From Nocardioides nitrophenolicus (GTDB taxonomy: Bacteria; Actinomycetota; Actinomycetes; Propionibacteriales; Nocardioidaceae), in NCBI RefSeq assembly GCF_016907515.1, contig NZ_JAFBBY010000001.1:2790001-2854000 (forward strand): a DNA stretch of 64,000 bases, written 5' to 3'. The notes beneath the pieces are model-generated. The model was given only the letters and a program-made list of their open reading frames with translations. It had not been told where the DNA came from and searched no databases. The position numbers and the translations under genes were made by a program. This document shows, piece after piece, positions 26,941-57,773 of the stretch. The stretch's first letter is position 1; every line of letters starts with the position of its first letter.

Positions 26941-27052
26941 CTGTAACACGGAGTCCGCTGGCCTACCTGACCTGGGACGTCGCCGCGTCGGGTCGGTGCG
27001 GGTCGGGAACAGTGGGCACGGGTCGTGGAGAGCGGCGTACAGCGTGTTACAG
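26941..27052 (+). repeat. 112-bp interspersed element, copy A1
   Basis: Begins CTGTAACACG and ends CGTGTTACAG, a perfect 10-bp terminal inverted repeat. The arms continue to pair imperfectly for about 30 bp, so the element can fold into a long hairpin with a G-rich centre containing GTGCGGGTCGGG. It differs from copy A2 (27127) at 9 of 112 positions and from copy B2 (57662) at about 27. No reading frame is evident. Confidence 0.85.
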
Positions 27053-27126
27053 CCCGGGGCAGGCTCGCTGACGAGCGCGGTGTGGTGCGGGGTGGCTGGG
27101 GTGCGGGGTGGCTGGGGTGGGTGCCG

Positions 27127-27238
27127 CTGTAACACGGAGTCCGCTGGCCTACCTGACCTGGGACGTCGCACAGTCGGGTCCGTGCGGGTCGGGAACAGCG
27201 GGGACGGGTCGCGGAGAGCAGCGAACAGCGTGTTACAG
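27127..27238 (+). repeat. 112-bp interspersed element, copy A2
   Basis: Same length, orientation and terminal inverted repeats as A1, separated from it by a 74-bp G-rich spacer. Both A copies are followed by the same 11 bp (CCCGGGGCAGG), so the duplicated unit extends slightly past the element. Together with A1 and their flanks it explains the gene-free stretch 26908-27313. Confidence 0.85.
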
Positions 27239-27313
27239 CCCGGGGCAGGGCGCACGCGGCGGCGGATGGTCGACGTCGGGCTGTGGCGGGCAACCTGAGC
27301 CGGAGGCACGGCG

Positions 27314-27319
27314 TACCGT
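27314..27319 (+). promoter_or_regulatory. -10 hexamer TACCGT, leaderless start of the pterin dehydratase gene
   Basis: TACCGT fits the actinobacterial TANNNT consensus and lies exactly 6 nt before ATG27326. There is no Shine-Dalgarno, so transcription and translation probably start at the same base. Confidence 0.6.
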
Positions 27320-27325
27320 CGGACC

Positions 27326-27655
27326 ATGGGCTACCAGCAGATCACCGCGGAGGAGTTCGCCCGCGCCGAAGGCGTGGGTGACTGGCGTGTCGTGGGGACA
27401 CATGCGTACGCCGTGTTCCGCACCGGGAGCTTCGCGACCGGCCTGGCGTTGGTCAACGCGATCGGCGAGCTGGCCGAGGCGGCCGACCACCACCCGGACC
27501 TCAAGCTCGGGTACCCCGCGCTCGCGGTGCACCTGACGACCCATGACACCGGGACGCTCACGACCGCCGACCTCGGTCTCGCGCAGCGGATCTCCGCCGC
27601 CGCTCGGGATCTCGGGGTCGCGGGCGACCCGGACGCGGTCGAGGCCTGGGCCTAG
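27326..27655 (+). CDS. 4a-hydroxytetrahydrobiopterin (pterin-4a-carbinolamine) dehydratase
   Basis: 109 residues. It shows the family's signature EAADHHPDLKLGYPALAVHLTTHDTGTLTTAD: the adjacent His-His-Pro supplies active-site residues for dehydration of 4a-hydroxytetrahydropterin. The enzyme recycles pterin cofactor after aromatic hydroxylation, in the cytosol. It is a single gene, convergent with the UvrA-like gene (4 bp gap), with a leaderless-type promoter. Confidence 0.9.
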   Translation: MGYQQITAEEFARAEGVGDWRVVGTHAYAVFRTGSFATGLALVNAIGELAEAADHHPDLKLGYPALAVHLTTHDTGTLTTADLGLAQRISAAARDLGVAGDPDAVEAWA

Positions 27656-27659
27656 CTCC

Positions 27660-30038
<2,379 letters not shown>

Positions 30039-30171
30039 GCGGCCCATCATGACGGATCGCGCCGACAGCCGGGACCCGTCGTCATGCCGCTCGTTGTCGT
30101 GTACGAGAATCGTCCGTCCTGGAGCGGGATTCGGGACGACACCGTGGGGGGAAGCCGTGCTGGAGGGAGCC

Positions 30172-30804
30172 GTGACCGAGGAGGTCACCACGTCACCGAC
30201 GCCGTCGGGGGCGACGACGTACGAGCAGTTCGGGGTCGCCTGGATCCACCGGGTGCTCCACAAGGAGCGGATCCTGCGCACCGTCGACCAGGTGCTCGGC
30301 GACCAGATCGCGCTCGGACCGATCGGCGCCGGGCCGGGCCGGGCGTTCGCGAGCGTGAGCTTCGTCGGGACCTACCGGCCCACCACGGGCGAGCTGGTGC
30401 CGGGCGAGCTGCTGACCTACGCGATCGACCTGCCGATCAGCGTGGTCTTCGAGCTCGGCCTGCCGATGGACCGGCTGACGTTCAACGCGGAGGTCGTCGT
30501 ACCGCTCGTGCTCGTGGTCCACACCGAGGCGCCGCTCAAGCTCCGCCTGGAGCTGCGGACCCCGACCGAGGACCAGATCGGGCTCGAGGTCAAGACCGAC
30601 ACCCGGCGGGGGGCGATGCTGCGCAAGGTCGCCGGCCTCGACGCCGAGCTGCGGCGGTTCCTGCTGAAGGTGCTGGACACCGAGCTGGCCAAGGCCTACG
30701 TGCGCAAGGCCACCCATCTCGACATGGAGGAGCTCATCGACGAGGCCTGGCCGGCCTTCACCGAGCAGTTCCTGCCGCGCGGACCCGAGGACCGGAAGGG
30801 CTGA
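30172..30804 (+). CDS. Conserved hypothetical protein
   Basis: 210 residues, soluble, mixed alpha/beta. GTG30172 has a good ribosome-binding site (GGAGGGA at 30162-30168). The body is beta-rich around YAIDLPISVVFELG and VVVPLVLVVHTEAPLKL, with a helical C-terminus rich in Leu/Arg. Nothing links it to a known function. Divergent from the UvrA-like gene across about 130 bp; convergent with a possible small membrane gene. Confidence 0.7.
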   Translation: MTEEVTTSPTPSGATTYEQFGVAWIHRVLHKERILRTVDQVLGDQIALGPIGAGPGRAFASVSFVGTYRPTTGELVPGELLTYAIDLPISVVFELGLPMDRLTFNAEVVVPLVLVVHTEAPLKLRLELRTPTEDQIGLEVKTDTRRGAMLRKVAGLDAELRRFLLKVLDTELAKAYVRKATHLDMEELIDEAWPAFTEQFLPRGPEDRKG

Positions 30805-31009
30805 CCCGCGCCGGCTCGGTGGTGGTCCGGCGGCGCAGCCGCGCGGGGGCGGCCACGGCGTCGTGCAGCGCGCCGAAGGCCATCGCGGCGAGCGGGATCC
30901 ACAGCGGGATGAGCATGAAGGCGAAGATCGGTACCAGGGTCATCAGGTCACGCAACGCGGGCTCCTCGGGTGGGCGTCTCGACCTCACCGAGTCTGTGAT
31001 GGGCGGCAC
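30758..31009 (-). CDS. Possible small membrane protein
   Basis: Up to 83 residues. The central helix (MTLVPIFAFMLIPLWIPLAAMAFGALHD, given here in parts: MTLVPIFAFM then LIPLWIPLAAMAFGALHD) is convincingly membranous, followed by a basic tail. The true start may be ATG30943 or the TTG at about 30955 rather than 31009. It overlaps the end of the convergent gene by 47 bp. It could be spurious, though the hydrophobic segment argues for a real gene. Confidence 0.4.
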   Translation of the reverse strand: MPPITDSVRSRRPPEEPALRDLMTLVPIFAFMLIPLWIPLAAMAFGALHDAVAAPARLRRRTTTEPARVSPSGPRVRAAGTAR

Positions 31010-31111
31010 GCGGATCGCTCGTGCCCGGCGACAGAGAGCCGCCGGAGTTTTGTGCCCTGGTCACAGTCGGCCGTCGGCGGCATCGGTCAACGCGCGTGTC
31101 ACGATGGGCCG

Positions 31112-31732
31112 GTGACGGACAGCGCGCGACGGTACGGCGGCCGCGCGGCCGGGGAGCGGGTCGCCGAGCGCCGGGCGCGGCTGCTGGCGGCCGGCCTGGA
31201 GCTGATGGGCACCCGCGGCGTCGTCGGCGTGACCGTGCGCGGGGTCGCGGAGGAGTCCGGGCTGGCGGCGCGCTACTTCTACGAGAGCTTCGCGAGCATC
31301 GAGGCGCTCCAGCTCGCGGTCTTCGAGCAGATCGCGGCCGAGGCCGCGCAGCGGGCGCTCGGCGCGCTGGCCACCGCGCCGGACGACCCGGCGGCGCGGA
31401 CCCGGGCGGTGCTGGCGCAGATGGCCGAGCTCTTCCTCGAGGACCCGCGCAAGGGCCGGATCGCCCTGCTGGAGTCGATCACCTCGCCGGTGCTCGGCCC
31501 GCGGGTGCTGGCGGAGTCGCGGCGCTTCGCCGGCATGCTCGCCGCCACCGCCTCCTCCGGGGACCCTGCGCAGCCCGATGCCGCACTCCCGGTCGAGCTG
31601 CGGCTGCGGGCGCGCTTCCTCATCGGTGGGGTGGCGCACGCGCTCAGCGCCGCGCTACAGGGCGACGTCGAGGTCGAGCGGGACCGACTGGTCGACGTCC
31701 TGGTGGACCTCTTCCTCGCCGTCAGGCCGTGA
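31112..31732 (+). CDS. TetR-family transcriptional regulator
   Basis: 206 residues. The N-terminal HTH (RRARLLAAGLELMGTRGVVGVTVRGVAEESGLAARYFYESF) is typical TetR, given here as partial motifs: RGVVGVTVRGVAEESGL then ARYFYESF. The C-terminal ligand domain is helical and ends LVDVLVDLFLAVRP. GTG31112 follows CACGAT by 6 nt. Convergent with the LLM oxidoreductase gene (11-bp overlap). Effector and target are unknown. Confidence 0.85.
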   Translation: MTDSARRYGGRAAGERVAERRARLLAAGLELMGTRGVVGVTVRGVAEESGLAARYFYESFASIEALQLAVFEQIAAEAAQRALGALATAPDDPAARTRAVLAQMAELFLEDPRKGRIALLESITSPVLGPRVLAESRRFAGMLAATASSGDPAQPDAALPVELRLRARFLIGGVAHALSAALQGDVEVERDRLVDVLVDLFLAVRP

Positions 31733-32774
31733 CCGGGGCCTGCGCGAGCAGCTCGCGGACCCGCGGGACCACCTGGGTGCCGTAGAGCTCGATGCTGCGC
31801 AGCAGCTGGGGATGCGGCATCGCACCGTTGCTGTACTTCAGGTCGAAGCGCTGGATCCCGAGGTCGCGTACGGCGGCCGCGATCTTGCGCGCGACCGTCT
31901 CCGGCGAGCCGACGAAGAGCGCGCCGTGGTCGACCTCGGCGTCGTACTGGGCCCGGGTGGCGGGCCCCCAGCCGCGCTCGGCGCCGATCCGGTTGCGGCT
32001 CTCCGTGAAGTGCGGGTAGAGCGCCTCGCGCGCCTCGTCGTCGGTGTCGGCGACGAAGCCGGGGGAGTGGACGGCGATCGGCAGGTCCGGTCGGTCGAAC
32101 TCCTTGAGGGCCCGGCGGTACAGGTCGGTGAAGGGCGCGAACCGGGCCGGCTCGCCGCCGATGATCGCGATCGCCAACGGGAAGCCGTAGGTGGCGGCGC
32201 GCACCACCGACTCCGGTGACCCGCCGACGCCGATCCAGGTCGGGATCGAGCCGCGCTCGGTGGTCGGGAAGATCCGTACGTCGCGCAGCGGCGGCCGCAG
32301 GCTGCCCCGGTCCCAGCTGACCGGCTGCTCGCCCTGGAGCGCGGCCCACAGGTCGATCTTCTCGCTGAACAGCTGGTCGTAGTGGGCCAGGTCGTAGCCG
32401 AACAGCGGGAAGGACTCGGTGAACGAGCCGCGGCCCATGGTGATCTCGGCGCGGCCGTTCGACACCGCGTCGAGGGTCGCGAACCGCTCGTAGAGGCGCA
32501 CCGGGTCGTCGGAGCTGAGCACCGTGACCGCGGTGCCGAGCCCGATCCGCTCGGTGCGCGCGGCGATCGCGGCCAGCACCATCTCGGGACTGGTCACCGC
32601 GAAGTCCGCGCGGTGGTGCTCCCCGATGCCGAACACGTCGACCCCGACCTGGTCGGCCAGCACGCCCTGCTCGACGACATTGCGGATCACCTGGGCATGG
32701 TCCAGGCGCTCCTGGGTCGCGGGATCGAGCGTGACGTCGCCGAAGGTGTCGAGCCCGAAGACCAGCTCGGTCAC
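31722..32774 (-). CDS. LLM-class flavin-dependent oxidoreductase
   Basis: 350 residues with a luciferase-like TIM barrel: LDTFGDVT, QGVLADQVGVDVFGIGEHHRADF, RIGLGTAVTVLSSDDPVRLYERFATLD, GRAEITMGRGSFTESFPLFG, FVGSPETVARKI. It probably uses reduced flavin (FMN or F420) for oxygenation or reduction of an unidentified substrate. The GTG start overlaps the thioredoxin stop by 4 bp, so the two redox genes form an operon. Confidence 0.87.
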   Translation of the reverse strand: MTELVFGLDTFGDVTLDPATQERLDHAQVIRNVVEQGVLADQVGVDVFGIGEHHRADFAVTSPEMVLAAIAARTERIGLGTAVTVLSSDDPVRLYERFATLDAVSNGRAEITMGRGSFTESFPLFGYDLAHYDQLFSEKIDLWAALQGEQPVSWDRGSLRPPLRDVRIFPTTERGSIPTWIGVGGSPESVVRAATYGFPLAIAIIGGEPARFAPFTDLYRRALKEFDRPDLPIAVHSPGFVADTDDEAREALYPHFTESRNRIGAERGWGPATRAQYDAEVDHGALFVGSPETVARKIAAAVRDLGIQRFDLKYSNGAMPHPQLLRSIELYGTQVVPRVRELLAQAPVTA

Positions 32775-33118
32775 TTCGCGGCCTTCGCGGCGTCGACGTC
32801 GAAGTCGCGGACGGCGGCGATGACCTGCGCCAGCGCGGGCGCGGGCAGGGCACCGGCCTGCGAGAAGACCAGCGCGCCCTTCTTGAAGGCCATCAGGGTC
32901 GGGATCGAGGTGACCCGGGCGGCGGAGGCGAGCTGCTGCTCCTCCTCGGTGTTGACCGAGGCGAAGACCAGGTCGCCGTGCTCCTCGGAGGCCGCCTCGT
33001 AGATCGGCGCGAAGTTGCGGCACGGGCCGCACCACGACGCCCAGAAGTCGACGAACACGATCTCGTTGTCGAGGACCGTCTGCTCGAAGTTGCCGGCGGT
33101 GAGGTCGATGGTGGACAT
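32771..33118 (-). CDS. Thioredoxin
   Basis: 115 residues with the WCGPC active site (Cys30 and Cys33), FVDFWASWCGPCRNFAPIYE, and cis-Pro in SIPTLMAFKKG. A dithiol-disulfide reductant in the cytosol. Coupled to the LLM oxidoreductase by a GTGA overlap. No signal peptide. Confidence 0.93.
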   Translation of the reverse strand: MSTIDLTAGNFEQTVLDNEIVFVDFWASWCGPCRNFAPIYEAASEEHGDLVFASVNTEEEQQLASAARVTSIPTLMAFKKGALVFSQAGALPAPALAQVIAAVRDFDVDAAKAAK

Positions 33119-33124
33119 GTCTCC

Positions 33125-33862
33125 TCAACGCATCGGGAGCGGGATTGTTCCCCGGTTGCGGTCGACGCCGCCGGTGACGCCCGGGACCGAGCCGCGGTCG
33201 TCGTACTGCCACACCGCCCAGGCCCGCCCCGGCGTCCGCTCGCCCAGCCGGCGGACCCACTGCGGGTGGTCGGCCAGCTCCCGCGCGAACCCGAAGCGGT
33301 CCTCGAAGTCGGGATAGAGGTAGACCAGGGTGGTCGTGCCCAGCCGGTCGTCGACGGTGGCGAGGAAGGCACGGACCTCGCGCAGCAGGCTCGCGCGGGG
33401 CGGCGGGTCCGCGCAGCTGCCGGCGAGCTCGAGGTCGAGTGCGGGCGGGATCCGGAGGTCCGGGTCGGGGCCGAGGACGTCGAGGAAGTGCTCGGCCTGC
33501 GCCACGCCGTCGCCGCACAGCTGGAAGTAGTGGTAGCCCGCCGCCGCCACGCCCGAGCGCAGAGCCGCGGCCCGGTGCGTCGCGAACCTCGGGTCGGTGA
33601 ACCCGGTGCCCTCCGTCGCCTTGAGGTAGGCGAACCCGATGCCCGCCGCCGCGACCCGGCCCCAGTCGATCGGGCCCTGGTGGTGGGAGACGTCGATGCC
33701 CTCGGCGAGGGCCGGCGCCGGCGTCGGGCTGGGGGTCGGCGTCGGGCTGGGGGTGGGAGTCGGGGTGGGCGTGGGAGTCGGGGCCGGCTCCGGCGGGTCC
33801 CCGCCGCAACCGGCGGCCACCAGCGCCACCAGGGCCACCACGGCGACGACCAGGCTCCTCAC
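33125..33862 (-). CDS. GH25 lysozyme-type muramidase, probably lipid-anchored
   Basis: 245 residues: signal peptide ending VAAGC (a lipobox-like site), a Thr/Pro/Ser-rich linker of about 22 residues, and a GH25 catalytic domain with GIDVSHHQGPIDW, FAYLKATEGTGFTDP, GYHYFQL, PPALDLEL and AWAVWQYDD. Catalytic Asp and Glu of the family are in DVSHHQ and DLEL. It cleaves peptidoglycan outside the cell. GTG33862 is preferred; ATG33907 would run into the divergent gene. TTGGCT lies 7 nt upstream. Confidence 0.85.
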   Translation of the reverse strand: MRSLVVAVVALVALVAAGCGGDPPEPAPTPTPTPTPTPSPTPTPSPTPAPALAEGIDVSHHQGPIDWGRVAAAGIGFAYLKATEGTGFTDPRFATHRAAALRSGVAAAGYHYFQLCGDGVAQAEHFLDVLGPDPDLRIPPALDLELAGSCADPPPRASLLREVRAFLATVDDRLGTTTLVYLYPDFEDRFGFARELADHPQWVRRLGERTPGRAWAVWQYDDRGSVPGVTGGVDRNRGTIPLPMR

Positions 33863-33893
33863 GTCGCCCAGCCAACCACGCCCGCGGCGGGCG

Positions 33894-33899
33894 TAGGGT
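33894..33899 (+). promoter_or_regulatory. -10 hexamer TAGGGT, leaderless start at 33906
   Basis: TAGGGT lies 6 nt before ATG33906 with no Shine-Dalgarno in between. Confidence 0.6.
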
Positions 33900-33905
33900 C
33901 GAGCC

Positions 33906-34424
33906 ATGCGCAGGCTGCTGCTGATCCCGCTCCTGACCCTGCTCGGCGGTGCGCTCGCGCTGCCCGCGCCCGCCGGCGCCGCCGTGAAGGTGATCGACGA
34001 CGGCCCCGACCCGTCACTGCCCGCGCAGATGGACATCCTGCGCGTGAAGATCGACAACCGCGCCGACCGCGTGGTCCTCAAGCTGACCTTCCGCGACCTG
34101 ACCGAGTCCCGCCGCGGTCAGACCAAGGTCTTCATCGGCACCGACCCCTCGAGCGAGGCCGGCTTCATCGCCTACAGCAGCCACCGCCCCGGGTCCGACC
34201 CGGTGACCCAGCTCTGGGAGCCCACGGACCAGGAGTTCGGTGGGATGCCGGTCGAGTGCTCCGGGATCCGGGGCCGGTGGCGCTTCGACGTCGACCGGGT
34301 GCGGATCGTCGTACCCCAGGCGTGCCTGGACAGCACGGCCGCGCGGTACACCTTCAAGGCGGTCGCCGGGTTCTACAAGCTGAAGGGCGACTGGACCGAG
34401 TTCCGCGGCGTGCGCCGCGGCTGA
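33906..34424 (+). CDS. Secreted hypothetical protein
   Basis: 172 residues with a clear Sec signal peptide (RRLLLIPLLTLLGG, cleavage near AGAAVK). The mature domain is beta-rich (DILRVKIDNRADRVVLKLTF; TKVFIGTD; WRFDVDRVRIVVPQACLD) with two cysteines (VECSG, QACLD) likely forming a disulfide. Such small exported proteins are common in Nocardioidaceae, without known function. Confidence 0.75.
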   Translation: MRRLLLIPLLTLLGGALALPAPAGAAVKVIDDGPDPSLPAQMDILRVKIDNRADRVVLKLTFRDLTESRRGQTKVFIGTDPSSEAGFIAYSSHRPGSDPVTQLWEPTDQEFGGMPVECSGIRGRWRFDVDRVRIVVPQACLDSTAARYTFKAVAGFYKLKGDWTEFRGVRRG

Positions 34425-34450
34425 CCGGCCCGGCCGGGAGGGCGGGCGGC

Positions 34451-34456
34451 TAGCCT
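34451..34456 (+). promoter_or_regulatory. -10 hexamer TAGCCT, leaderless start at 34463
   Basis: TAGCCT lies 6 nt before ATG34463; the interval is CCTCCC, with no ribosome-binding site. Confidence 0.6.
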
Positions 34457-34462
34457 CCTCCC

Positions 34463-35020
34463 ATGGAGAGCGCGCGGACCACCCACGTCCTGGTGGACGG
34501 GGAGAACATCGACGCCACCCTCGGTACGTCGATCCTGGGCCGGCGGCCCCGGCCCGAGGAGCGGCCGCGCTGGGAGCGGCTGCTGCAGTTCGTCGAGCGG
34601 CAGTGGGGTCAGCCGACCAACGGCCTGTTCTTCCTGGCGGCCAACAGCGAGCTGCCGATGTCGTTCGTGCAGGCGCTGCTGGCGATCGGCTACCGCCCGA
34701 TCCCGCTGTCGGGCGGGGCCAACCAGAAGGTCGTCGACATCGCCATCCAGCGCACGCTGGAGGAGCTGAAGAGCCGCGAGGCCGATGTCGTCCTGGTCAG
34801 CAACGACGGCGACTTCGTGGAGCAGATCGAGGACGTCCTCGACGGCCGGCGGGTGGGCCTGGTCGGGTTCACCGAGTTCCGCAACAGCGCCTTCGCCCAG
34901 CTGACCTCGCGCGGCCTGGACTTCTTCGACCTCGAGTACGACGTCAACGCGTTCAACGAGCGGCTGCCGCGGGTCCGGATCATCCCGATCGACGAGTTCG
35001 ACCCGACCCAGTTCCTCTGA
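34463..35020 (+). CDS. NYN-domain (PIN-like) protein
   Basis: 185 residues. Acidic residues typical of NYN/PIN-like RNases are present: LVDGENIDATL near the start, KVVDIAIQRTLEEL, and VVLVSNDGDFVEQIE. These could bind one Mg2+ for RNA cleavage. The C-terminus is FNERLPRVRIIPIDEFD. Cytosolic; RNA substrate unknown. Followed by a run of unrelated same-strand genes. Confidence 0.82.
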   Translation: MESARTTHVLVDGENIDATLGTSILGRRPRPEERPRWERLLQFVERQWGQPTNGLFFLAANSELPMSFVQALLAIGYRPIPLSGGANQKVVDIAIQRTLEELKSREADVVLVSNDGDFVEQIEDVLDGRRVGLVGFTEFRNSAFAQLTSRGLDFFDLEYDVNAFNERLPRVRIIPIDEFDPTQFL

Positions 35021-35051
35021 GGAGCCGCCACCCGCAGGGCATGCTGTCCGG

Positions 35052-36020: not shown

Positions 36021-36023
36021 CGT
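36018..36023 (+). promoter_or_regulatory. -10 hexamer TAACGT ahead of the exonuclease III gene
   Basis: TAACGT overlaps the stop codon of the epimerase gene and lies 7 nt before GTG36031, consistent with a leaderless mRNA. Confidence 0.5.
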
Positions 36024-36030
36024 CCGGTCG

Positions 36031-36903: not shown

Positions 36904-36920
36904 CCTGGCGCTCCCCGGCG
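36892..36920 (+). repeat. 29-bp direct repeat, left border of TA cassette
   Basis: Starts GACCTCAGCTGACC and ends CTCCCCGGCG; identical to 37499-37527. It includes the last codons and stop of the exonuclease gene and the sequence upstream of the antitoxin -10. Confidence 0.9.
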
Positions 36921-36926: not shown

Positions 36927-36932
36927 CGCTGC

Positions 36933-46582: not shown

Positions 46583-46603
46583 CGCCCGACCGGGCGGTCT
46601 CGC

Positions 46604-46609: not shown

Positions 46610-46615
46610 CACCTC

Positions 46616-49553: not shown

Positions 49554-49560
49554 GCGCGGA

Positions 49561-49566
49561 AGCCTA
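49561..49566 (-). promoter_or_regulatory. -10 hexamer TAGGCT of the large LuxR regulator
   Basis: Minus-strand TAGGCT 7 nt before ATG49553. Confidence 0.5.
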
Positions 49567-49639
49567 GTGGTGCCGGAGGTGGGGCGCCGGTTGAAGTGGC
49601 GCGCGAGGGGGAAGAGGTCCCTGCGGGCGCCTCGGACCC

Positions 49640-49683
49640 CTGCGCCGCGCTCACCAGTCGTGGGGACGGTGGGCGCGGCGCAG
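49640..49683 (-). terminator. Stem-loop downstream of the ABC exporter operon
   Basis: Perfect 11-bp arms CTGCGCCGCGC and GCGCGGCGCAG around a loop of about 22 nt, part of which pairs further (TCACC with GGTGG). It lies 6 bp after the permease stop on the minus strand. No T tract, as is common in high-GC actinobacteria. Confidence 0.6.
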
Positions 49684-49688
49684 GCTGC

Positions 49689-50489
49689 TCAGCGGCTGGT
49701 CGTCAGCCGGTACTGGCGCACCGACAGCGGCGCGAACACCGCGATGATCGCGACCACCCAGATCAGCGTGTAGAGGACCGGGTGCTGCAGCGACCACGCG
49801 TCGGAGCCGGGCCCGACGCCGGTGTTGCCGAACAGGTCGCGGCTGGCCTGGGTGACCGCGGAGACCGGGTTCCACTCGACCACCGGCTTGAGCACGCTGT
49901 TGAACGAGCTGGTCGGGACGAAGGCGTTGGAGACGAAGGTCAGCGGCATGATCACGATGAACGAGGCGTTGTTGATCACCTCGACGCTCGGCACCATCAG
50001 GCCGACCCACGCCATCACCCAGCTGATCGCGTAGCCGAAGACCAACAGCAGCGCGAAGCCGGCAAGGGCGTCGAGGACGCCCTCGCGGATCCGCCAGCCG
50101 ACCATCAGGCCGGTCAGCGCCATGATGATCAGCGAGAGCACGTTGTAGACCACGTCGGACGACGTACGCCCGACGAGGACGGCCGAGCTCGACATCGGCA
50201 GCGACCGGAACCGGTCGATGATGCCCTTCTGCATGTCCTCCGCGAGCCCGGCGCCGGTGAACGTCGCGCCGAACACGATGGTCTGGCCGAAGATGCCGGC
50301 GATCAGCCACTCGCGGTAGTTGACGCCCGGGGTCTCGATCGCGCCGCCGAAGACGTAGGCGAACAGCAGCACGAACATGATCGGGCTGACCAGGACGAAG
50401 ACCAGGATCTCGGGGACCCGGACGATCTTGATCAGGTTGCGCTGGGCGACCACCCAGCCGTCGCTGGCGGCCTGGGTCAGGGTGCTCAC
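49689..50489 (-). CDS. ABC-2 type permease, DrrB-like
   Basis: 266 residues with six TM helices and typical DrrB/ABC-2 text: REWLIAGIFGQTIVFGATFTGAGLAEDMQKGIIDRFRSLPMSSSAVLVGR (key parts: GIIDRFRSLPMSS, then FVSNAFVPTSSF). Pairs with the ATPase encoded just upstream; GTG50489 overlaps its stop. Probable export of a drug or lipid. Substrate unknown. Confidence 0.88.
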   Translation of the reverse strand: MSTLTQAASDGWVVAQRNLIKIVRVPEILVFVLVSPIMFVLLFAYVFGGAIETPGVNYREWLIAGIFGQTIVFGATFTGAGLAEDMQKGIIDRFRSLPMSSSAVLVGRTSSDVVYNVLSLIIMALTGLMVGWRIREGVLDALAGFALLLVFGYAISWVMAWVGLMVPSVEVINNASFIVIMPLTFVSNAFVPTSSFNSVLKPVVEWNPVSAVTQASRDLFGNTGVGPGSDAWSLQHPVLYTLIWVVAIIAVFAPLSVRQYRLTTSR

Positions 50490-51463
50490 TGGTCGACCTC
50501 CGTGGTCTGGCTGCTGTCGGTGCTGTCGTGGCCGGTCAGGCTGAGGAAGACGTCGTCGAGGGTGGGGCGGCGCAGCCCGACGTCGAGCACCTTCACCGCG
50601 TCGCGCTCGAAGCCCTGCAGCACCCGCAGCAGGTCGCCCGCCGCCTCGTCGCCGACCGCGGCGGCCAGCTCGCGGCCGGCTCCGGTGACCTGCACCTCGC
50701 CGACCGCGACCTCGTTGAGGATCCGGCCGGCGGCCTCGGCGTCGGCCGCGTTGGTGAGCACGACCTCGATCCGCTGGCCGCCGGTCTGCGCCTTGAGCTC
50801 GTCGGCGGTGCCGTGGGCGATCTCGCGGCCGTGGTCGATCACCACGATGTCGTCGGCCAGCACGTCGGCCTCCTCGAGATACTGCGTCGTGAGCAGCAGG
50901 GTCGCGCCGTCGGCGACCAGCTCGCGGATGACGTCCCACATCAGCTGGCGGCTGCGCGGGTCGAGGCCGGTGGTCGGCTCGTCGAGCACGATCACCGGCG
51001 GCGCCGCGACCAGCGCGCAGGCCAGGTCGAGACGCCGGCGCTGGCCGCCGGAGTAGGTCTTCGTCGGCCGGTTCGCGAACTCGGTGAGGTCGAAGCGCTC
51101 GAGCAGCTCGTGCGCCCGAGCCCGGGCGGGCCCGCGGCCGAGGTGGTAGAGCCGGCCGATCATCACCAGGTTCTCGGCGGCCGTGAGGTGCTCGTCGACG
51201 GCGGCGTACTGGCCCGACAGCCCGATCTTGGCCTTGGCCGCCGCGGGATCGGCGAGGACGTCGATGCCGGCCACCCGCGCGCTGCCCGCGTCGGGCTTGA
51301 GCAGCGTGGTCAGACAGCGCACCGCCGTGGTCTTGCCGGCTCCGTTGGGCCCCAGCAGCGCCAGCACCCTCCCCTCGGGCACGGCCAGGTCGAGGCCCGC
51401 GAGGGCCTCGACGTCCTGGTAGCGCTTGACCAGTCCGGTCGCGCTGATCATCGGATCGCTCAT
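50486..51463 (-). CDS. ABC transporter ATP-binding protein, DrrA-like
   Basis: 325 residues: Walker A LLGPNGAGKTTAV, Q-loop GLSGQYAAVDEHLT, signature YSGGQRRRLDLA, Walker B VIVLDEPTTGLDPRS, and the C-terminal extension of DrrA proteins (LRRPTLDDVFLSLTGH). Powers the ABC-2 permease. ATG51463 is preferred (GGGGCGACG upstream); the frame continues further upstream without family similarity. Confidence 0.9.
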   Translation of the reverse strand: MSDPMISATGLVKRYQDVEALAGLDLAVPEGRVLALLGPNGAGKTTAVRCLTTLLKPDAGSARVAGIDVLADPAAAKAKIGLSGQYAAVDEHLTAAENLVMIGRLYHLGRGPARARAHELLERFDLTEFANRPTKTYSGGQRRRLDLACALVAAPPVIVLDEPTTGLDPRSRQLMWDVIRELVADGATLLLTTQYLEEADVLADDIVVIDHGREIAHGTADELKAQTGGQRIEVVLTNAADAEAAGRILNEVAVGEVQVTGAGRELAAAVGDEAAGDLLRVLQGFERDAVKVLDVGLRRPTLDDVFLSLTGHDSTDSSQTTEVDQ

Positions 51464-51546
51464 CGTCGCCCCTGAAGTCCTTCTCGTGTCGTCGTCCCCG
51501 GCTTCGACACTAGGGACCACCGCCGACAACGGAACTCATCGCGGTG

Positions 51547-51601
51547 AGGCAAGGCTGGGCGTGCGTAGGCAAGGCTTCCTTTTCTGGAATGACTCCAGAA
51601 A
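51547..51601 (+). promoter_or_regulatory. Possible iron/metal-responsive operators upstream of dps
   Basis: AGGCAAGGCT occurs at 51547-51556 and 51567-51576, a 20-bp period; GGCAAGG recurs at 51606. The half-sites loosely resemble DtxR/IdeR/DmdR iron boxes (about 11 of 19 matches, counted by eye). Between them and the gene, TTTCTGGA and TCCAGAAA (51581-51588, 51594-51601) are perfect inverted repeats. Confidence 0.4.
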
Positions 51602-51647
51602 GCGTGGCAAGGTGGAGTCACCGTCATCGATGAAGGGAGCACCACCC

Positions 51648-52181
51648 GTGGCCACCACCGTGACCCGACACCGCTCGTCCCAGCACGTCGCCCACCCCGC
51701 GTTCCGGGCCGACGCCGCCCTGGCCGGCCACCTCCAGCAGGTCCTCGTCGACCTCAACGATCTCGCCCTCCAGGGCAAGCAGGCGCACTGGAACGCGGTC
51801 GGCCCCAACTTCCGCGACCTGCACCTCCAGCTCGACGAGATCGTCGACGCCGCCCGTGAGTTCACCGACGCCGTCGCCGAGCGGATGCGCGCGCTGTACG
51901 TCGTCCCCGACGGCACCTCCGCCCGCACCGCCGCCCAGTCCAGCCTCCCCGCCTTCCCAGGCGGCGAGGTCGCCACCGGCGACGCGATCGACGCGATCGT
52001 CGCCTCGATCTACGCGGTCGCCGGCACCGTGCGCCGGGTCCACGACGACGTCGACGCCGCGGACCCCACCACCGCGGACCTGCTGCACTCGATCCTCGAG
52101 CGGCTCGAGCAGCTGGCCTGGCTGACCGACGCCGAGCGGCGGGCGCCCGAGGGCTCGGTGCCGGAGGCGATCATCGCCTGA
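51648..52181 (+). CDS. dps: Dps-family DNA-binding ferritin-like protein
   Basis: 177 residues. Ferroxidase residues are conserved at the dimer interface: LALQGKQAHWNAVGPNFRDLH and LDEIVDAAREFTDAVAERMRAL (parts: KQAHWNAVGPNFRDLH, then LDEIVDAAREFTDAVAER). It oxidises Fe2+ with H2O2 and protects DNA. GTG51648 has AAGGGAG upstream; ATG51630 would add six residues. Its original terminator has been split by an IS30 insertion 17 bp after the stop. Confidence 0.9.
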   Translation: MATTVTRHRSSQHVAHPAFRADAALAGHLQQVLVDLNDLALQGKQAHWNAVGPNFRDLHLQLDEIVDAAREFTDAVAERMRALYVVPDGTSARTAAQSSLPAFPGGEVATGDAIDAIVASIYAVAGTVRRVHDDVDAADPTTADLLHSILERLEQLAWLTDAERRAPEGSVPEAIIA

Positions 52182-52197
52182 GCCCGGGGTTGCGCGT

Positions 52198-52214
52198 CGT
52201 ATCTGACGAATGGG
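52198..52214 (+). repeat. Left arm of palindrome interrupted by the IS
   Basis: CGTATCTGACGAATGGG, the complement of the right arm at 53559-53575 with one change. These arms match the uninterrupted hairpin at 59361-59417. Confidence 0.8.
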
Positions 52215-52254
52215 TCCCGAATTCGGCGGCTAGGTCAAGCGGTCGAAGCAACTT

Positions 52255-53271
52255 CTAGGCTGCTGCCGGGTTCGACAACAGCGCGTCCAGCGCTTGGGCT
52301 GGTGTCTTCATGTCCAGGGTAGGACGTGGGCGGGCGTTGAGGCTGGCCGCGATCCGGCGTAGGTCGGCTGCGGTGAAGCGGGACAGGTCGCTGCCCTTGG
52401 TGAGCCAGTGGCGTAGCAGCCGGTTGGTGTTCTCGTTCGTGCCGCGTTGCCACGGCGAGTGCGGGTCACAGAAGTAGACCGGCATCGACAGGTCGGTCTG
52501 GATCTTGGCGTAGGCCGCGAGCTCGGTCCCGCGGTCCCAGGTCAACGACCGCCGCAGATGCTCAGGCAGTTGCGACATCTCCCGGATCATCGCCTCAGCC
52601 ACGGACTCGGCGTCATGGCTGCCGGGCAGGTGCAACAAGATCGTGAACCGCGTGGCCCGCTCGACCAGCGTCCCGACCGCGGGACTCCCCGGGCTGCCCA
52701 TGATGAGGTCGCCCTCCCAGTGACCGGGCACCGCCCGGTCCGCGACCTCGGGCGGGCGTTGGCTGATCTTGAACGCCTCCTTGTACGGGCTGTTCGCGCG
52801 CTTGACCCCGCCCTGCGGCTTACGTGCAGCCCGCTTGGTCGACAGCTGCCGGTAGAGGTCCTTGCGCAACCCTCCGCGGGTCTGGACGTAGAGCGCCTGG
52901 TAAATCGTCTCGTGCGACACACGGCCCATGATCGTGTGGGGCGACTCCTCACGCAGCACCCGCGCGATCAACTGCGGGGACCAACCGTCGTCCATCCAGG
53001 CCTCGATCCGCCGGCACAGGCCCGGCTCGGCGACCAGCCGGAACTCCTTGGGCCGTTTGCGCTTCACCACGGCCTGCTGGTGCGCCAGCGCGCCATAGTA
53101 GGAGCCGTCCGGGCCACTGTTGCGAGCGATCTCGCGACCGATCACCGACTTGTGCCGCTCGATCAGCTCACCGATCTGAGCAAGCGTGATCTTCTCGCCC
53201 CGTGCCCGACACTGCAGGCAGGCAGCGATCACAGCCCGGTCCTCACTGGTCAGCATGCGCCGCTGACCCAC
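52255..53271 (-). CDS. IS30 transposase, main part (DDE domain)
   Basis: 338 residues with an internal HTH (ITLAQIGELIERHKSVIGREIARN, parts: LAQIGELIERHKS) and catalytic acidic residues in GHWEGDLIMG, LTWDRGTELA and WQRGTNENTNRLL. The usual IS30 N-terminal HTH is missing from this frame; it is encoded just upstream in another frame (53243-53500). ATG or GTG near 53271 would be an internal start. Confidence 0.88.
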   Translation of the reverse strand: MGQRRMLTSEDRAVIAACLQCRARGEKITLAQIGELIERHKSVIGREIARNSGPDGSYYGALAHQQAVVKRKRPKEFRLVAEPGLCRRIEAWMDDGWSPQLIARVLREESPHTIMGRVSHETIYQALYVQTRGGLRKDLYRQLSTKRAARKPQGGVKRANSPYKEAFKISQRPPEVADRAVPGHWEGDLIMGSPGSPAVGTLVERATRFTILLHLPGSHDAESVAEAMIREMSQLPEHLRRSLTWDRGTELAAYAKIQTDLSMPVYFCDPHSPWQRGTNENTNRLLRHWLTKGSDLSRFTAADLRRIAASLNARPRPTLDMKTPAQALDALLSNPAAA

Positions 53272-53500
53272 CCCGGCCGCCCCGGCCGCCCCGGCCGCTA
53301 AGTCTGGTGCGGGCGCTGTCGATGCCCCCGACTCGGCCTGGCAGAAGCTCCAAGGTCACCGGAGCAGACTTGCGCCACCACTCCCACGCCGACTGCTTCG
53401 CCACGCCGACCTCGCTCGAGGCCTTCGCCAGCGACCAGCCTGTGCACACCAAGCCAAAGAACCGAGCACGGACCTCGTACGGCACACGCTGACGGACCAC
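53243..53500 (-). CDS. IS30 transposase, N-terminal HTH part (different frame)
   Basis: 85 residues. VPYEVRARFFGLVCTGWSLAKASSEVGVAKQSAWEWWRK (parts: FFGLVCTGWSLAKASSEVG, then QSAWEWWRK) is the IS30-type N-terminal HTH, ending in a Gly/Arg repeat. GTG53500 has GGAGG 5-7 nt upstream. The frame shifts by +1 relative to the main part at a 9-bp tandem repeat (53272-53298, GCGGCCGGG-type). Programmed frameshifting or a mutation would join the halves into about 400 residues. Confidence 0.7.
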   Translation of the reverse strand: MVRQRVPYEVRARFFGLVCTGWSLAKASSEVGVAKQSAWEWWRKSAPVTLELLPGRVGGIDSARTRLSGRGGRGGRGGSAAHADQ

Positions 53501-53558
53501 AACACCTCCACGGGATTGGTGTTGCTACGACCACTTGAGCCTGCCGGCTCGTCGTCGA

Positions 53559-53578
53559 CCCATTCGTCAGATGCGACG
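53559..53578 (+). repeat. Right arm of palindrome interrupted by the IS
   Basis: CCCATTCGTCAGATGCGACG, identical to the right arm of the intact hairpin at 59401-59420. Confidence 0.8.
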
Positions 53579-53623
53579 GAAGCAAGGCTAGACAGATCGG
53601 CCGATGTGTCTCAGGGTTGGGGC

Positions 53624-54826
53624 ATGTCGGCTGAGATGTTGCAGGGCTATGTGGCGCGGGGCGGGGTCGCGTGGCGCGACCCGTGGGCGTCCTACGCGTG
53701 GCTGCGCGAGCACGACCCGGTCCACCACGTGGTCCCGGCCGGCCGCCCGGACCGCGACTACTACGTCCTCTCGCGGCACGCCGACGTGCTCGCCGCGGCC
53801 GTCGACACCGCCACCTTCTCCAGCGCGGCCGGGCTCACGGTCGAGTACGACGAGCTCGAGCGGATCGGGCTGGTCGACAACCCGCCGTTCGTGATGACCG
53901 ACCCGCCCGTCCACACCACCTTCCGCCGGCTGGTCGCGCGCGGGTTCACGCCCCGCCAGGTGCGCGAGCTGGGGCCGGCGGTGCGGGCCTTCGTCGTCGA
54001 GCGGCTCGACGCGCTGCGGGCGGCCGGTGGCGGCGACGTCGTGGCCGAGCTGTTCAAGCCGCTGCCGAGCTTCGTCGTCGGCCACTACCTCGGCGTCCCC
54101 GTCGAGGACCAGCCGCGCTTCGACGACTGGAGCGGCGCCATCGTCGCGGCCAACGTCGCGGGTGAGGGCGCCCTCGCCGCGGCGGACGCCGCCGCCGCGA
54201 CCACCGAGCTGATGGCGTACTTCGCCGACCTGGTCGAGCGCCGCCGCCGCGAGCCGGGCGCCGACACCGTCTCCCAGCTGGTCCTGGCCGAGACCGACCT
54301 GCTCGAGATCCTCGCCTTCGTCTTCACCATGGTCGCCGGCGGCAACGACACGTCCACCGGCGCGCTCGGCGGCGCCGTGCAGCTGCTCGCCGCCCACCCC
54401 GACCAGCGCGCCCTCCTGGCCGGGGATCCCGGCCTCGTCCCCGACGCCGTCGAGGAGGTCCTGCGCCTCACCTCGCCGGTGCAGGGCCTGGCCCGCACCA
54501 CCACCCGCGACGTCGAGTTGCACGACACCGTCGTCCCGGCGGGCCGCAAGGTGCTGCTGCTCTACGCCGCCGGCAACCGCGACCCGCGCCGCTACGGCCC
54601 CGACGCCGACCGGCTCGACGTACGCCGGCGCCCGAGCCAGGTGCTCAGCTTCAGCCAGGGACACCACCACTGCCTCGGCGCCGCCGCCGCGCGGCTGCAG
54701 ATCACCGTCGCGCTGGAGGAGCTGCTCGCCCGGATCCCGGACTTCACGGTCGACGAGGACGCGGTGACCTGGGCGCCGGGACCCTACGTCCGGCGGCCGC
54801 TCTCGATGCCGCTGGTGGTCTCGTGA
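53624..54826 (+). CDS. Cytochrome P450
   Basis: 400 residues: ExxR region VEEVLRLTSP, I-helix AGGNDTSTG, haem loop LSFSQGHHHCLGAAAAR. Distinct from the P450 at 45250. CAGGGT lies 6 nt before ATG53624, a leaderless-type start beyond the IS end. It overlaps the downstream TetR gene by 4 bp, which suggests that TetR controls this P450. Confidence 0.92.
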   Translation: MSAEMLQGYVARGGVAWRDPWASYAWLREHDPVHHVVPAGRPDRDYYVLSRHADVLAAAVDTATFSSAAGLTVEYDELERIGLVDNPPFVMTDPPVHTTFRRLVARGFTPRQVRELGPAVRAFVVERLDALRAAGGGDVVAELFKPLPSFVVGHYLGVPVEDQPRFDDWSGAIVAANVAGEGALAAADAAAATTELMAYFADLVERRRREPGADTVSQLVLAETDLLEILAFVFTMVAGGNDTSTGALGGAVQLLAAHPDQRALLAGDPGLVPDAVEEVLRLTSPVQGLARTTTRDVELHDTVVPAGRKVLLLYAAGNRDPRRYGPDADRLDVRRRPSQVLSFSQGHHHCLGAAAARLQITVALEELLARIPDFTVDEDAVTWAPGPYVRRPLSMPLVVS

Positions 54827-55338
54827 GCTGGGTCGACCGTCGTACGCCGGCGGTCGAGCGGATCCTCGACGCCGCGGGCGGGCTGATCGCCGAGCGCGGC
54901 GTCGACGCCGTCGCGATGGGGGAGATCGCACGGGCGGCGGGGTGCTCGCGGGCCACGCTCTACCGCTACTTCCCCGACCGGCTCGCGCTGCAGCGCGCCT
55001 TCGTGCAGCGCGAGGCGGTCCGGGTCGGCGCCCTGGTCGCCGCCGAGGCGCCCGCGACGGTGACCGAGGCCGCCCTCGCGGCGCTGCGCCACGTCCGGGC
55101 CGCGCCCACGCTGGCCGCCTGGTTCCGCGAGGGGGACGCCGGCCGGTCGGCCGGTCTGGCCCACGACTCCGAGGTGGTCGAGGCCCTCGGCCTGAGCCTG
55201 GTGGCCGATCGCGAGGCCGCTGCCTGGCTGGTCCGGGTGATCGTGTCGCTGCTGACCGTGCCCGGTGGCGACGAGGCGGCCGAGCGGCGGCTGGTCGACC
55301 GGTTCGTCGCGCCGGTGATCGCCCTGACCACGCCCTGA
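54823..55338 (+). CDS. TetR-family regulator coupled to P450
   Basis: 171 residues. HTH in ILDAAGGLIAERGVDAVAMGEIARAAGCSRATLYRYFPDRLAL (parts: MGEIARAAGCSRATLYRYF). GTG54823 overlaps the P450 stop. The C-terminal domain is short, with a probable ligand pocket. Probably represses its own operon. Confidence 0.87.
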   Translation: MSWVDRRTPAVERILDAAGGLIAERGVDAVAMGEIARAAGCSRATLYRYFPDRLALQRAFVQREAVRVGALVAAEAPATVTEAALAALRHVRAAPTLAAWFREGDAGRSAGLAHDSEVVEALGLSLVADREAAAWLVRVIVSLLTVPGGDEAAERRLVDRFVAPVIALTTP

Positions 55339-55389
55339 TCCGTCCCTGGTCGGCCCCTGACCCTCCCCGCCCGGGGCCGCCGAGCGCCC

Positions 55390-55395
55390 TACGGT
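55390..55395 (+). promoter_or_regulatory. -10 hexamer TACGGT, leaderless start at 55402
   Basis: TACGGT lies 6 nt before GTG55402. Confidence 0.6.
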
Positions 55396-55401
55396 GAGCA
55401 C

Positions 55402-57363
55402 GTGGGAGTGGTGGAGTGGGTCTACACGGTCGTCACGAGCCTGGTCCTGGCCGCCGGCCTCGGGGCGGTGATCCGCCGGATCCTCGGCGCCCGGGTGGGC
55501 TGGCTGCGCACCCTGCTGGTCGCCTGGACCGCCCTCCTGGTGGGGATTCCCGTGACCGGGAAGCTGGCCGTCGCCGCCGGCGTCGGGACCGAGAGCGGCC
55601 GGCTGACCACGTCCCAGGGCACGGCGGTCGCCTTCCTGCTGGTCAGCTGCCTGTGGGTGTTCGCCGCCGCGCTGGCGGTGGTGATGCTGCTGGAGGTGCT
55701 CCTGCCGTCGGGCACGGTCCCCGGTCCGCGGGAGGCGTTCGGCCGGTTCCGGTCGTGGCTGCGCCGGACCCGCCGGTATCTGCAGATCGGTCGTGCGGCC
55801 ACCGGCTCGGGGCTCGGGGCGGTGCTGCGGGGCGGTCCCGGCTCGGCGTCGTTCGGGCCCGCCCTCGCCTCCGTCTTCAACAGGTCGGGCGTCACCTTCG
55901 TCAAGCTCGGCCAGATCCTCGCCACCCGCGACGACCTGCTGCCCGCCGACACCACCCGCGCGCTCGCGACCCTGCAGTCGGACGCCGACCCGGAGCCGTA
56001 CGACGCCGTGGCGGCCACCATCGAGGCCGACCTCGGCGACCGGCCGGAGGCGCTCTTCGCCGCCTTCGACACCGAGCCGCTGGCCGCGGCCTCCGTCGCC
56101 CAGGTGCACACCGCGACGCTGCACGACGGCCGCGAGGTGGTCGTGAAGGTGCAGCGCAGCAAGGCCCGCCGACAGGTCGAGGTCGACACCGACATCCTGG
56201 TCCGGCTGGCCCGTACCGCCGAGCAGCGCTGGCCATGGGCGCGCGACCTCGGGGTCTCGCGGCTGGCCGCCGGTCTCGCCCAGTCGCTGCGCGAGGAGCT
56301 GGACTACCGGATCGAGGCGGGCAACACGGCGGCCGGCGCGGCCGCGCTGCGCGAGCGGCCCGACCTCGTCGTCCCCGCCGTGGACGCCGCGCTGAGCACC
56401 CGCCGGGTGCTCGTGATGGACCGGCTGCACGGCGTCCCCCTCTCCGCGGGGGAGCCGGCCGTCGCCGGGCTCACCCCGCAGCGCCGGGTCGAGCTCGCCG
56501 ACACCCTCATCGCCGCGCTGCTCGACACGGTGTTCGTCGCGGGCGTCTTCCACGCCGACCTGCACCCCGGCAACATCCTGGTGCTCGACGACGGCCGGAT
56601 CGGGCTGCTCGACTTCGGCGCCGTCGGCGTCCTCGACAGCGAGACCCGCCAGCTGCTCGCCCTGCTGCTGTTCGCGATCCTCAGCGACGACGCGGTCTCG
56701 GCGGTGGACGCGCTCACCCTGGCGTTCGACGTACCGGACGACCTGGACGTGCCGCAGCTGCGCCGGGAGCTCGGCCGCGAGATCGCCGCGCTCCAGCTGC
56801 AGACGACCATCGGCGGCGACACCTTCGCGCGGATCTTCGTGGTCCTGCGCCGGCACCGGATCGGCGTACCGGGGGACGTCGCCGCCGCCTTCCGCACCCT
56901 CACCTCGGTCGAGGCCGCGATCACCCTGCTCGACCCCGGCAGCAGCCTGCTCCGCTCGGCCCGCGCCCAGCTCCCGTCCCTGCTGCGGCGGCTGGCCGAG
57001 CCCAAGCGGGTCGCCGCGCAGGCCGTCAGCCAGGCCGGTGTGGTCGCCGCCATCGCCCGCCGCCTTCCCGAGCGCGTCGAGCACCTCACCAGCGCGCTCG
57101 GCGACGGCACCTTCACGGTCCGCACCCGCGCCTTCGGCGACGCCGAGGACCGGGCCTGGCTGCGCGACCAGGTCAACAACGGCCTGGCCGCCGCCTTCGG
57201 CATCACCGCCTGCATCCTCGCCGTCGTCCTCGGCCTCCACGGCGGCGGACCGCGGCTGACCGACGAGCTCTCCCTCTTCGGCCTGCTGGGGCTCGCGCTC
57301 GGCTTCTGCGGGGTGACCCTGGCGCTGCGCGTGGTCGTGCGACTGTTCCAGCGCCGGGAGTGA
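55402..57363 (+). CDS. UbiB/ABC1-family atypical kinase, membrane-bound
   Basis: 653 residues. N-terminal membrane helices (two to three), then the UbiB kinase-like domain: KLGQILATRDDLLP, VAQVHTATLHDGREVVVKVQ (Ala-rich/Lys motif), VFHADLHPGNILVLDD and GLLDFGAVG. Two helices close the C-terminus. The family acts in quinone/isoprenoid lipid metabolism as an ATPase. The gene ends at a C-rich tract and the second pair of 112-bp repeats. Confidence 0.88.
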   Translation: MGVVEWVYTVVTSLVLAAGLGAVIRRILGARVGWLRTLLVAWTALLVGIPVTGKLAVAAGVGTESGRLTTSQGTAVAFLLVSCLWVFAAALAVVMLLEVLLPSGTVPGPREAFGRFRSWLRRTRRYLQIGRAATGSGLGAVLRGGPGSASFGPALASVFNRSGVTFVKLGQILATRDDLLPADTTRALATLQSDADPEPYDAVAATIEADLGDRPEALFAAFDTEPLAAASVAQVHTATLHDGREVVVKVQRSKARRQVEVDTDILVRLARTAEQRWPWARDLGVSRLAAGLAQSLREELDYRIEAGNTAAGAAALRERPDLVVPAVDAALSTRRVLVMDRLHGVPLSAGEPAVAGLTPQRRVELADTLIAALLDTVFVAGVFHADLHPGNILVLDDGRIGLLDFGAVGVLDSETRQLLALLLFAILSDDAVSAVDALTLAFDVPDDLDVPQLRRELGREIAALQLQTTIGGDTFARIFVVLRRHRIGVPGDVAAAFRTLTSVEAAITLLDPGSSLLRSARAQLPSLLRRLAEPKRVAAQAVSQAGVVAAIARRLPERVEHLTSALGDGTFTVRTRAFGDAEDRAWLRDQVNNGLAAAFGITACILAVVLGLHGGGPRLTDELSLFGLLGLALGFCGVTLALRVVVRLFQRRE

Positions 57364-57388
57364 GGACCGGGAGCGGCTACCGCCCGAT

Positions 57389-57418
57389 CCCCCATCCCCC
57401 CGTCCCCCCATCCCCCCC
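57389..57418 (-). other. C-rich tract able to form a G-quadruplex on the minus strand
   Basis: Four runs of five to seven C (57389-57393, 57396-57401, 57404-57409, 57412-57418) separated by two-base loops AT, GT, AT. Lies 25 bp after the UbiB-like stop and 66 bp before repeat B1. Gene-free region 57364-57788 otherwise holds only repeats B1 and B2 with their spacers. Confidence 0.55.
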
Positions 57419-57483
57419 GCCCGCACGTGATCGTCCGCCGGGTGTGACGAGGCCGGGAGGTGGCTCGGGCTGGCTGGCCGGGC

Positions 57484-57595
57484 TTGTAACACGTTGTCCG
57501 CTGTTCTACGTGACCCCAGACGTCGGCGGAGGGGGTCTGTGCGGGTCGGGTAGGTGGGGTGGGGGTCATGGGGAGCGGCGGACTGCGTGTTACAG
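57484..57595 (+). repeat. 112-bp interspersed element, copy B1
   Basis: Same 112-bp length and terminal repeats as the A copies (first base T instead of C). Identical to B2 at 110 of 112 positions. The arms pair well beyond the 10-bp ends (TTGTCCGCTGTTCTACGTGA against the mirror arm). Confidence 0.85.
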
Positions 57596-57661
57596 CGCCA
57601 ACCGGGGCCGAGCGCTCCGGTCGGACGTCGTGGGGCTGACGCGACGGGCGGCTGGCCGGGC

Positions 57662-57773
57662 CTGTAACACGTTGTCCGCTGTTCTACGTGACCCCAGACG
57701 TCGGCGGAGGGGGTCTGTGCGGGTCGGGTAGGTGGGGTGGGGGTCATGAGGAGCGGCGGACTGCGTGTTACAG
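57662..57773 (+). repeat. 112-bp interspersed element, copy B2
   Basis: Begins CTGTAACACG and ends CGTGTTACAG. Separated from B1 by a 66-bp spacer; both copies are preceded by GGCTGGCCGGGC, so the duplicated unit includes some flank. Confidence 0.85.

Follow-up and report, generated by a model that had tools for sequence, protein, structure and literature searches.

A dispersed family of 112-bp palindromic elements in Nocardioides nitrophenolicus is paired with a bracketed AbiEi-like gene, suggesting a REPIN/RAYT-like system

What is a 112-bp sequence that occurs four times within one stretch of chromosome, as two closely spaced pairs, and what could have placed it there? The question is raised by a 64,000-nucleotide stretch of the Nocardioides nitrophenolicus genome (RefSeq assembly GCF_016907515.1, genome code G000; positions 2790001-2854000 of one 5.8-Mb contig, NZ_JAFBBY010000001.1; hereafter the window), in which a first-pass annotation had described an interspersed element with terminal inverted repeats. 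Our analysis bears out that description. The copies lie, all on the + strand, at 26941..27052 and 27127..27238 (site 1, 74-bp spacer) and at 57484..57595 and 57662..57773 (site 2, 66-bp spacer); compared in one orientation, the two copies of the first pair agree at 103/112 positions, those of the second at 110/112, and copies from different sites at 81-85/112; and the ends read CTGTAACACG/CGTGTTACAG, with a single left-end variant, TTGTAACACG, in the copy at 57484. We report here that these copies belong to a family with many more members in the genome and genus, and that the family is paired with an AbiEi-like gene that is itself bracketed by two elements.

The 112-bp copies are real members of a dispersed family. 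The end pattern TGTAACACG-N80..100-CGTGTTACA has 78 exact matches in the 5.8-Mb genome (80 in a looser form) and none in a reversed control, and all eight occurrences of the end 10-mer in the window at one mismatch or fewer are element ends (shuffled sequence gave a mean of 1.23 and a maximum of 5). When a single genome was scanned for each species, 55 of the 61 stretches that matched came from Nocardioides, Pimelobacter or Nocardioidaceae. Among 215 genomes of the genus, the long spacing (N72-102) occurs in 33 and the short spacing (N41-71) in 67, with 0 in the control columns; united, the two spacings mark 85 genomes as element-bearing, and the number of matches to that end pattern ranges from 0 to 80 per congener. 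Further copies therefore exist, against one possibility that the annotation had raised; as to the other, that the unit is part of a known insertion sequence (IS) or miniature inverted-repeat transposable element (MITE), none was encountered, without a genome-wide search for transposases with these ends, and like the annotation we found no named family. The six remaining stretches of the species scan (L024, L031, L040, L057, L063 and L066), one each from Prevotella, Eubacterium, Planctomycetota and Melainabacteria and two from one Cloacimonadota genome, are probably chance matches. Genome G020 (7% contamination in the assembly) holds five elements with another body, and no homologue of the partner gene described below was found in it.

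We then examined where the elements sit, taking 46 places (exact-ended copies, joined where they lie within 260 bp of each other) and gene positions from our own codon-score calls, with no annotation and with overlaps of 30 bp or less ignored. All 46 places are intergenic, although the window is 93% coding; the neighbouring genes converge on 18 of them, diverge from 5 and share one strand at 23. The annotation had the element always occurring as a tandem pair, which is true of both window sites, yet only 8 of the 46 places are multi-copy. At six of these eight, the elements are 101-109/110 identical and their flanks match at no more than 33/60, and an unlinked inverted pair at 2869494 and 2983437, 114 kb apart, is 106/110 identical with flanks likewise at or below 33/60. 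Because near-identical elements stand in unrelated flanks, the element itself was the copied unit. Copying is also reflected between genomes: when elements of the same length class at different loci were compared, 109- and 110-bp elements not being cross-compared, the nearest neighbour lay within the same genome for 99 of the 109 distinct elements taken from ten genomes, against a shuffled mean of 30.6 and a maximum of 47; in LHD-245 this held for 0/3. At L121 (2304-3815, about 3.539 Mb in G000), an insertion with a 409-aa transposase-like open reading frame (ORF) interrupts a tandem set at its third copy. We considered this locus as a parent autonomous element and rejected it, since the large insert between the ends is an IS inside a copy, presumably IS256-like.

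Presence at individual sites differs between species. The relative G100 has matches to the two neighbours of window site 2 (91% and 82%), with only 38 bp between them and no end motif at two or fewer mismatches, so that the place orthologous to that of the copy at 57484 is element-free. In G108, both neighbours of site 1 are matched, and the 693 bp of other sequence between them contains no end motif at one or fewer mismatches and one at two. Elsewhere in G108 (L276, about 3.940 Mb), an element with an extra 40-bp end precedes the orthologue of the gene at window position 57801, and the upstream gene is a different one. By eye, the L276 element resembles G108's own subfamily and not the window copies, a likeness that would fit a single site having undergone re-insertion or conversion.

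The first-pass annotation saw no attached reading frame; an associated gene does exist, 1.2-1.3 Mb from the window. In N. pelophilus, N. caeni and N. albidus, one gene is enclosed by two elements about 1.35-1.4 kb apart, and N. nitrophenolicus has two strong homologues of it, with 81% and 57% identity to the protein of N. albidus; the two partner genes of this genome lie at 4131648-4132709 and 4033099-4034127. Gene and element class are paired, the first homologue standing between elements of a 110-bp class and the second between elements of a 109-bp class, and the four weaker homologues in this genome have no such terminal 9-mer (TGTAACACG) within 1.5 kb. In many relatives, an AbiEi-like gene is bracketed likewise by elements with other end sequences and lengths. 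Of the 215 genus genomes, 136 contain a member of the partner family at E≤1e-40, and at this threshold the gene occurs in 74 of 85 element-bearing versus 62 of 130 element-free genomes (Fisher p=1.4e-9, a value overstated because the genomes are related). Among the profile matches listed for the taxonomic order, scores divide cleanly, the partner clade reaching at least 319 bits and generic AbiEi-like proteins at most 210, with partial matches in G167 (220) and G090 (190). The only names listed for members of the protein family are 'AbiEi family antitoxin', 'transcriptional regulator' and 'hypothetical', and most entries are unnamed.

Bracketing extends to genomes in which the end pattern itself is missing. 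We found an inverted-repeat word shared by both flanks at 22 of 29 top loci and at 17 of 37 loci from pattern-negative genomes (40 of the 62 gene-bearing genomes of this kind were sampled), compared to 1 of 198 shuffles. Four of the seven top loci that missed (L128, L131, L143 and L154) still have 9-mers on both sides. Five loci were dropped from the test, L153 and L155 for short contigs and L199, L205 and L224 for contig ends, the latter three having been kept with short right flanks in an earlier flank comparison. Two hits that remain inside the totals quoted for this test are discounted: L172 is an artefact, a contig end having made both flanks one stretch, and L206 is probably chance and was not counted as real. 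The length of the elements also tracks the protein tree, with 8 changes for 7 length classes (shuffled mean 21.2; 0/200 as low), on a quick tree with one long branch (L208) and with 36 of 46 rows labelled by hand, some from one flank. A motif that we take to be of PcrA/UvrD type lies in the available flanking sequence of 19 of 78 partner loci.

If gene and element belong together, the flanks of more distant homologues should reveal further families, and this prediction was met: the flanks of two of them gave two new dispersed families. In N. nitrophenolicus, the generic AbiEi-like homologue L124 (G000 4396265-4397164) is bracketed by 82-bp palindromes beginning TCATCACGGGAT, a family with 10 copies in this genome and 39 in total, in 7 of 215 genomes. 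In G311, which belongs to another bacterial family, the AbiEi-like homologue L270 is bracketed by 70-bp palindromes beginning ACTTCACACCCC, which number 18 in G311 itself and are absent from 146 further genomes of that bacterial family. At a further locus, L267 (G384), CGGCACACCCTG arrays with a 20-bp period lie on either side of the AbiEi-like gene, at 472-571 and 1605-1666. Families at such distant homologues mean that the link between gene and element is not confined to one clade.

The partner protein combines a recognisable N-terminal half with a C-terminal half that is probably a nuclease domain. Matches to Pfam AbiEi_4 at E≤0.1 occur in 45 of the 46 members, and in each of four proteins scanned the N-terminal part (to about residue 180-190, once 214) is covered by PADLOC AbiEi models. 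Past residue 200, the AlphaFold2 model (predicted local distance difference test score, pLDDT, 91.8; predicted template modelling score, pTM, 0.89) has a helix, three strands, a helix and a strand. Across 46 sequences E206, Q224, D237, E246 and R276 are invariant and K252 is conserved in at least 90%, and E206, Q224, E246 and R276 are still invariant when distant members are added. PD-(D/E)xK nucleases have the order alpha-beta-beta-beta-alpha-beta and the pattern E...D...ExDGxxK, with the acidic and lysine residues on strands 2 and 3; from secondary-structure order and motif, the C-terminal half is probably a domain of this type. Searches of PDB sequences, NCBIfam and PHROGs returned nothing useful for the partner protein, and a Y1 transposase is absent among the 11 Pfam families listed for it, a RAYT elsewhere in the genome not having been searched for.

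What the protein might recognise is suggested by the anatomy of the elements, which we read in 55 copies (50 listed places, one adjoining and four beside partner genes, the rest, mostly beyond 3.54 Mb, being left out). The length between the outer ends of the 9-mers is 110 bp in 44 copies and 109 bp in 11, and the dinucleotide GC is the left-hand neighbour of 50 of the 55 copies and the right-hand neighbour of 51. Copy 1, with exact ends at 26941 and 27043, illustrates the plan: a 110-bp-class core (26942-27051) plus an outer C/G pair carries the left terminal 9-mer TGTAACACG at 26942..26950 (+) and its inverted counterpart at 27043..27051 (-), 101 bp from start to start, and the same unit recurs around other cores, mostly at multiples of about 20 bp. 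By our own gene scoring copy 1 is intergenic between two same-strand genes, copy 2 lies about 88 bp upstream of a gene start, and the next gene begins about 29 bp beyond copy 4. Many cores have additional 9-mers beyond their ends, which for the most part lengthen the array in the form >>> core <<<. Facing ends are separated, start to start, by 100/101 bp (115 cases), 80/81 (5), 61 (3), 41 (1), 102 (1) and 129/130 (3), the search pattern behind this genome's copies having permitted 89-109; same-direction ends are separated by 40 bp (50 cases), 80 (10), 20 (6), 29/30 (3) and 125 (4, from the L095 duplication), with single cases at 13, 41, 53, 120 and 130. Divergent ends follow no spacing rule of about 20 bp.

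The annotation had the arms pairing for about 30 bp and proposed looking for covariation in the stem. Partial self-complementarity is indeed present, at 21-23 of the outer 30 positions, which makes the 30-bp figure loose, and overall there is no covariation. When whole right arms were shuffled among copies (one copy per place, 2000 permutations), the 35 copies of the 110 class had 711 complementary pairs versus a shuffled mean of 721.0 (1707/2000 as high, no excess pairing), and the 11 copies of the 109 class had 264 versus 254.4 (225/2000 as high, not significant). Since complementarity does not significantly exceed that of shuffled arms, sequence seems to be conserved more than pairing. The end spacing looks like that of a protein reading one face of the helix, and the lack of overall arm covariation, together with spacings near multiples of 20 bp, suggests protein sites in duplex DNA, with the terminal 9-mer likely a protein-binding half-site. 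The 110-class consensus has CTACC at positions 22-26 of one arm (GTAG on the other strand), internal to the element.

On balance we favour a system resembling REPIN/RAYT in which the partner role falls to an AbiEi-type winged-helix protein carrying a probable PD-(D/E)xK domain. The 112-bp sequences would be non-autonomous palindromic DNA elements, multiplied within the genome and retained between genes, each an array of the short end motif in duplex form and dyad symmetry, mostly in steps of about 20 bp; together they would form a pair with the chromosomal partner gene, which two copies bracket. We infer that the protein is the mobiliser: its AbiEi-like winged-helix N-terminal half would bind end motifs in 20-bp steps, its C-terminal domain would cut DNA at or near the ends, and repair or joining would then put copies into new intergenic gaps.

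Several observations, besides the overstated Fisher value, weigh against this proposal. No transposition step was observed, and no target-site duplication can be separated from the GC/GC flanks (50 and 51 of 55), which prolong the palindrome and so are indistinguishable from a 2-bp duplication. Eleven of the 85 element-bearing genomes have no strong homologue (two partial, in G167 and G090, six weak and three none). The flank test was passed by 1 of 7 partner-clade loci in other genera and by 4 of 44 generic AbiEi-like homologues (2/31 and 2/13), of which only three look real, one of the four positives being an artefact; the other 40 were negative. At L114 (2049-2834, about 3.088 Mb in G000) two copies also enclose another ORF, which ends at 2681, so that bracketing by itself is not peculiar to partner genes. 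For the protein, D237 is not invariant once distant members join the alignment, and sequence searches gave no nuclease family or PDB relative. For the elements, spacings of 13, 29/30, 53 and 120-130 bp break the 20-bp rule, and pairs 10, 11, 31, 33 and 38 of the 109 class covary weakly (z 2.0-2.3; 11 copies).

The chief rival to mobilisation by the partner is that the elements are operator or chromosome-organising sites that the AbiEi-like protein only binds, for example in repressing its own and other genes, their spread having some other cause. Known AbiEi proteins are autorepressors that bind inverted repeats (PMC7319586), and the helical-step spacing, the arm symmetry without overall covariation and the 18 of 46 places between convergent genes would all suit a binding site. 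Ordinary operators, however, do not come as near-identical 110-bp copies in unrelated flanks or range in number from 0 to 80 among congeners at one end pattern, and binding alone would leave the conserved nuclease-like C-terminal domain unneeded; we consider this account unlikely, though a serious competitor. It is less probable still that the elements are MITEs derived from a DDE or tyrosine transposon of classical type, with the same ends, that has been lost or missed. Terminal inverted repeats starting TGT...ACA, a short body and dispersed copies are what one would see, but five loci at which ends stand apart from cores (L019, L042, L075, L114 and L121) hold no transposon with these ends, L121 being a copy split by an IS with different ends; nor could a target-site duplication be made out, and such an origin does not predict a bracketed AbiEi-like gene across many species.

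We regard as very improbable that the elements act as RNA, either as hairpin terminators or as small RNAs. On the + strand, two of the four copies in the window outdo every shuffle in folding (z -6.0 and -7.1), and on the - strand one of two copies tested has z -3.3; the convergent places and the five weakly covarying pairs of the 109 class also lean this way. Against it, z is -0.6 and -1.6 for the remaining two copies, arm pairing shows no excess in the 110 class and no significant one in the 109 class, and the window has 0 Rfam matches at the gathering threshold. That the pairs are segmental tandem duplications with no mobile element involved is scarcely credible. The tandem duplication suggested in the first-pass annotation does fit L095 and L121, where flanks are repeated along with the elements, and by eye the site 1 copies share 12 bp on the right and the site 2 copies about 12/13 bp on the left; at the six other multi-copy places, however, the flanks otherwise differ (≤32/60), most copies are single, and the two unlinked, inverted copies at 2.869 and 2.983 Mb contradict this account.

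Among known systems, the closest in plan are REPIN/RAYT and TIRYT/TIR (PMC3116915, PMC3733652), which share with our elements a short palindromic form, intergenic placement, many copies and species-specific sequence. As in REPIN/RAYT, a low-copy chromosomal partner is bracketed by the same repeats and is in part kept in one place. Unlike RAYT, the partner here is AbiEi-like with a probable PD-(D/E)xK domain and has no HUH/Y1 (IS200/IS605-type) match; TGTAACACG ends and their relatives lack the GTAG tag described in PMC3733652, CTAC occurring only internally; and the behaviour of the arms is that of duplex sites, spaced mostly by 20-bp steps. Because the Y1 partner and the GTAG end are absent and a selected hairpin is not evident, the system would work like REPIN/RAYT without being a member of it. 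The likeness to AbiEi type IV antitoxins lies in the N-terminal domain (AbiEi_4, PADLOC models) and in the binding of inverted repeats, which PMC7319586 reports for two AbiEi proteins, one with positive and the other with negative cooperativity, and which we infer here; bracketing by dispersed elements and an extra nuclease-like C-terminal domain set our gene apart. MITEs, ERIC and Correia elements are likewise short, with terminal inverted repeats and many intergenic copies, as are the elements here, but for the latter no parent transposon (at the five loci named above) or target duplication was found, and a partner gene was identified. Integron attC sites were considered and rejected, the ends not fitting the attC core sites by eye.

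We found no account of these elements in the titles and abstract openings of open-access PubMed Central literature, and reports elsewhere are possible. To our knowledge, several families of short palindromic repeats in bacteria have no known mobiliser, and the palindromes flanking a gene labelled as an antitoxin hint at an undescribed route by which small DNA elements spread. Position, phylogeny and the successful prediction of new families tie the partner family to its repeats. Somewhat more tentatively than for the system itself, we suggest that many of the 'AbiEi family antitoxin domain' proteins that stand alone in Actinobacteria could form a new class of DNA-mobilising nucleases and not be antitoxins, each with its own duplex palindrome family, the plan shared with RAYT/REPIN having arisen separately. 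The 20-bp rule makes for a simple model of end recognition that can be put to the test. If the protein does move the elements, it would be a second, unrelated type of enzyme for the REPIN/RAYT plan, and a common orphan family would gain a function.

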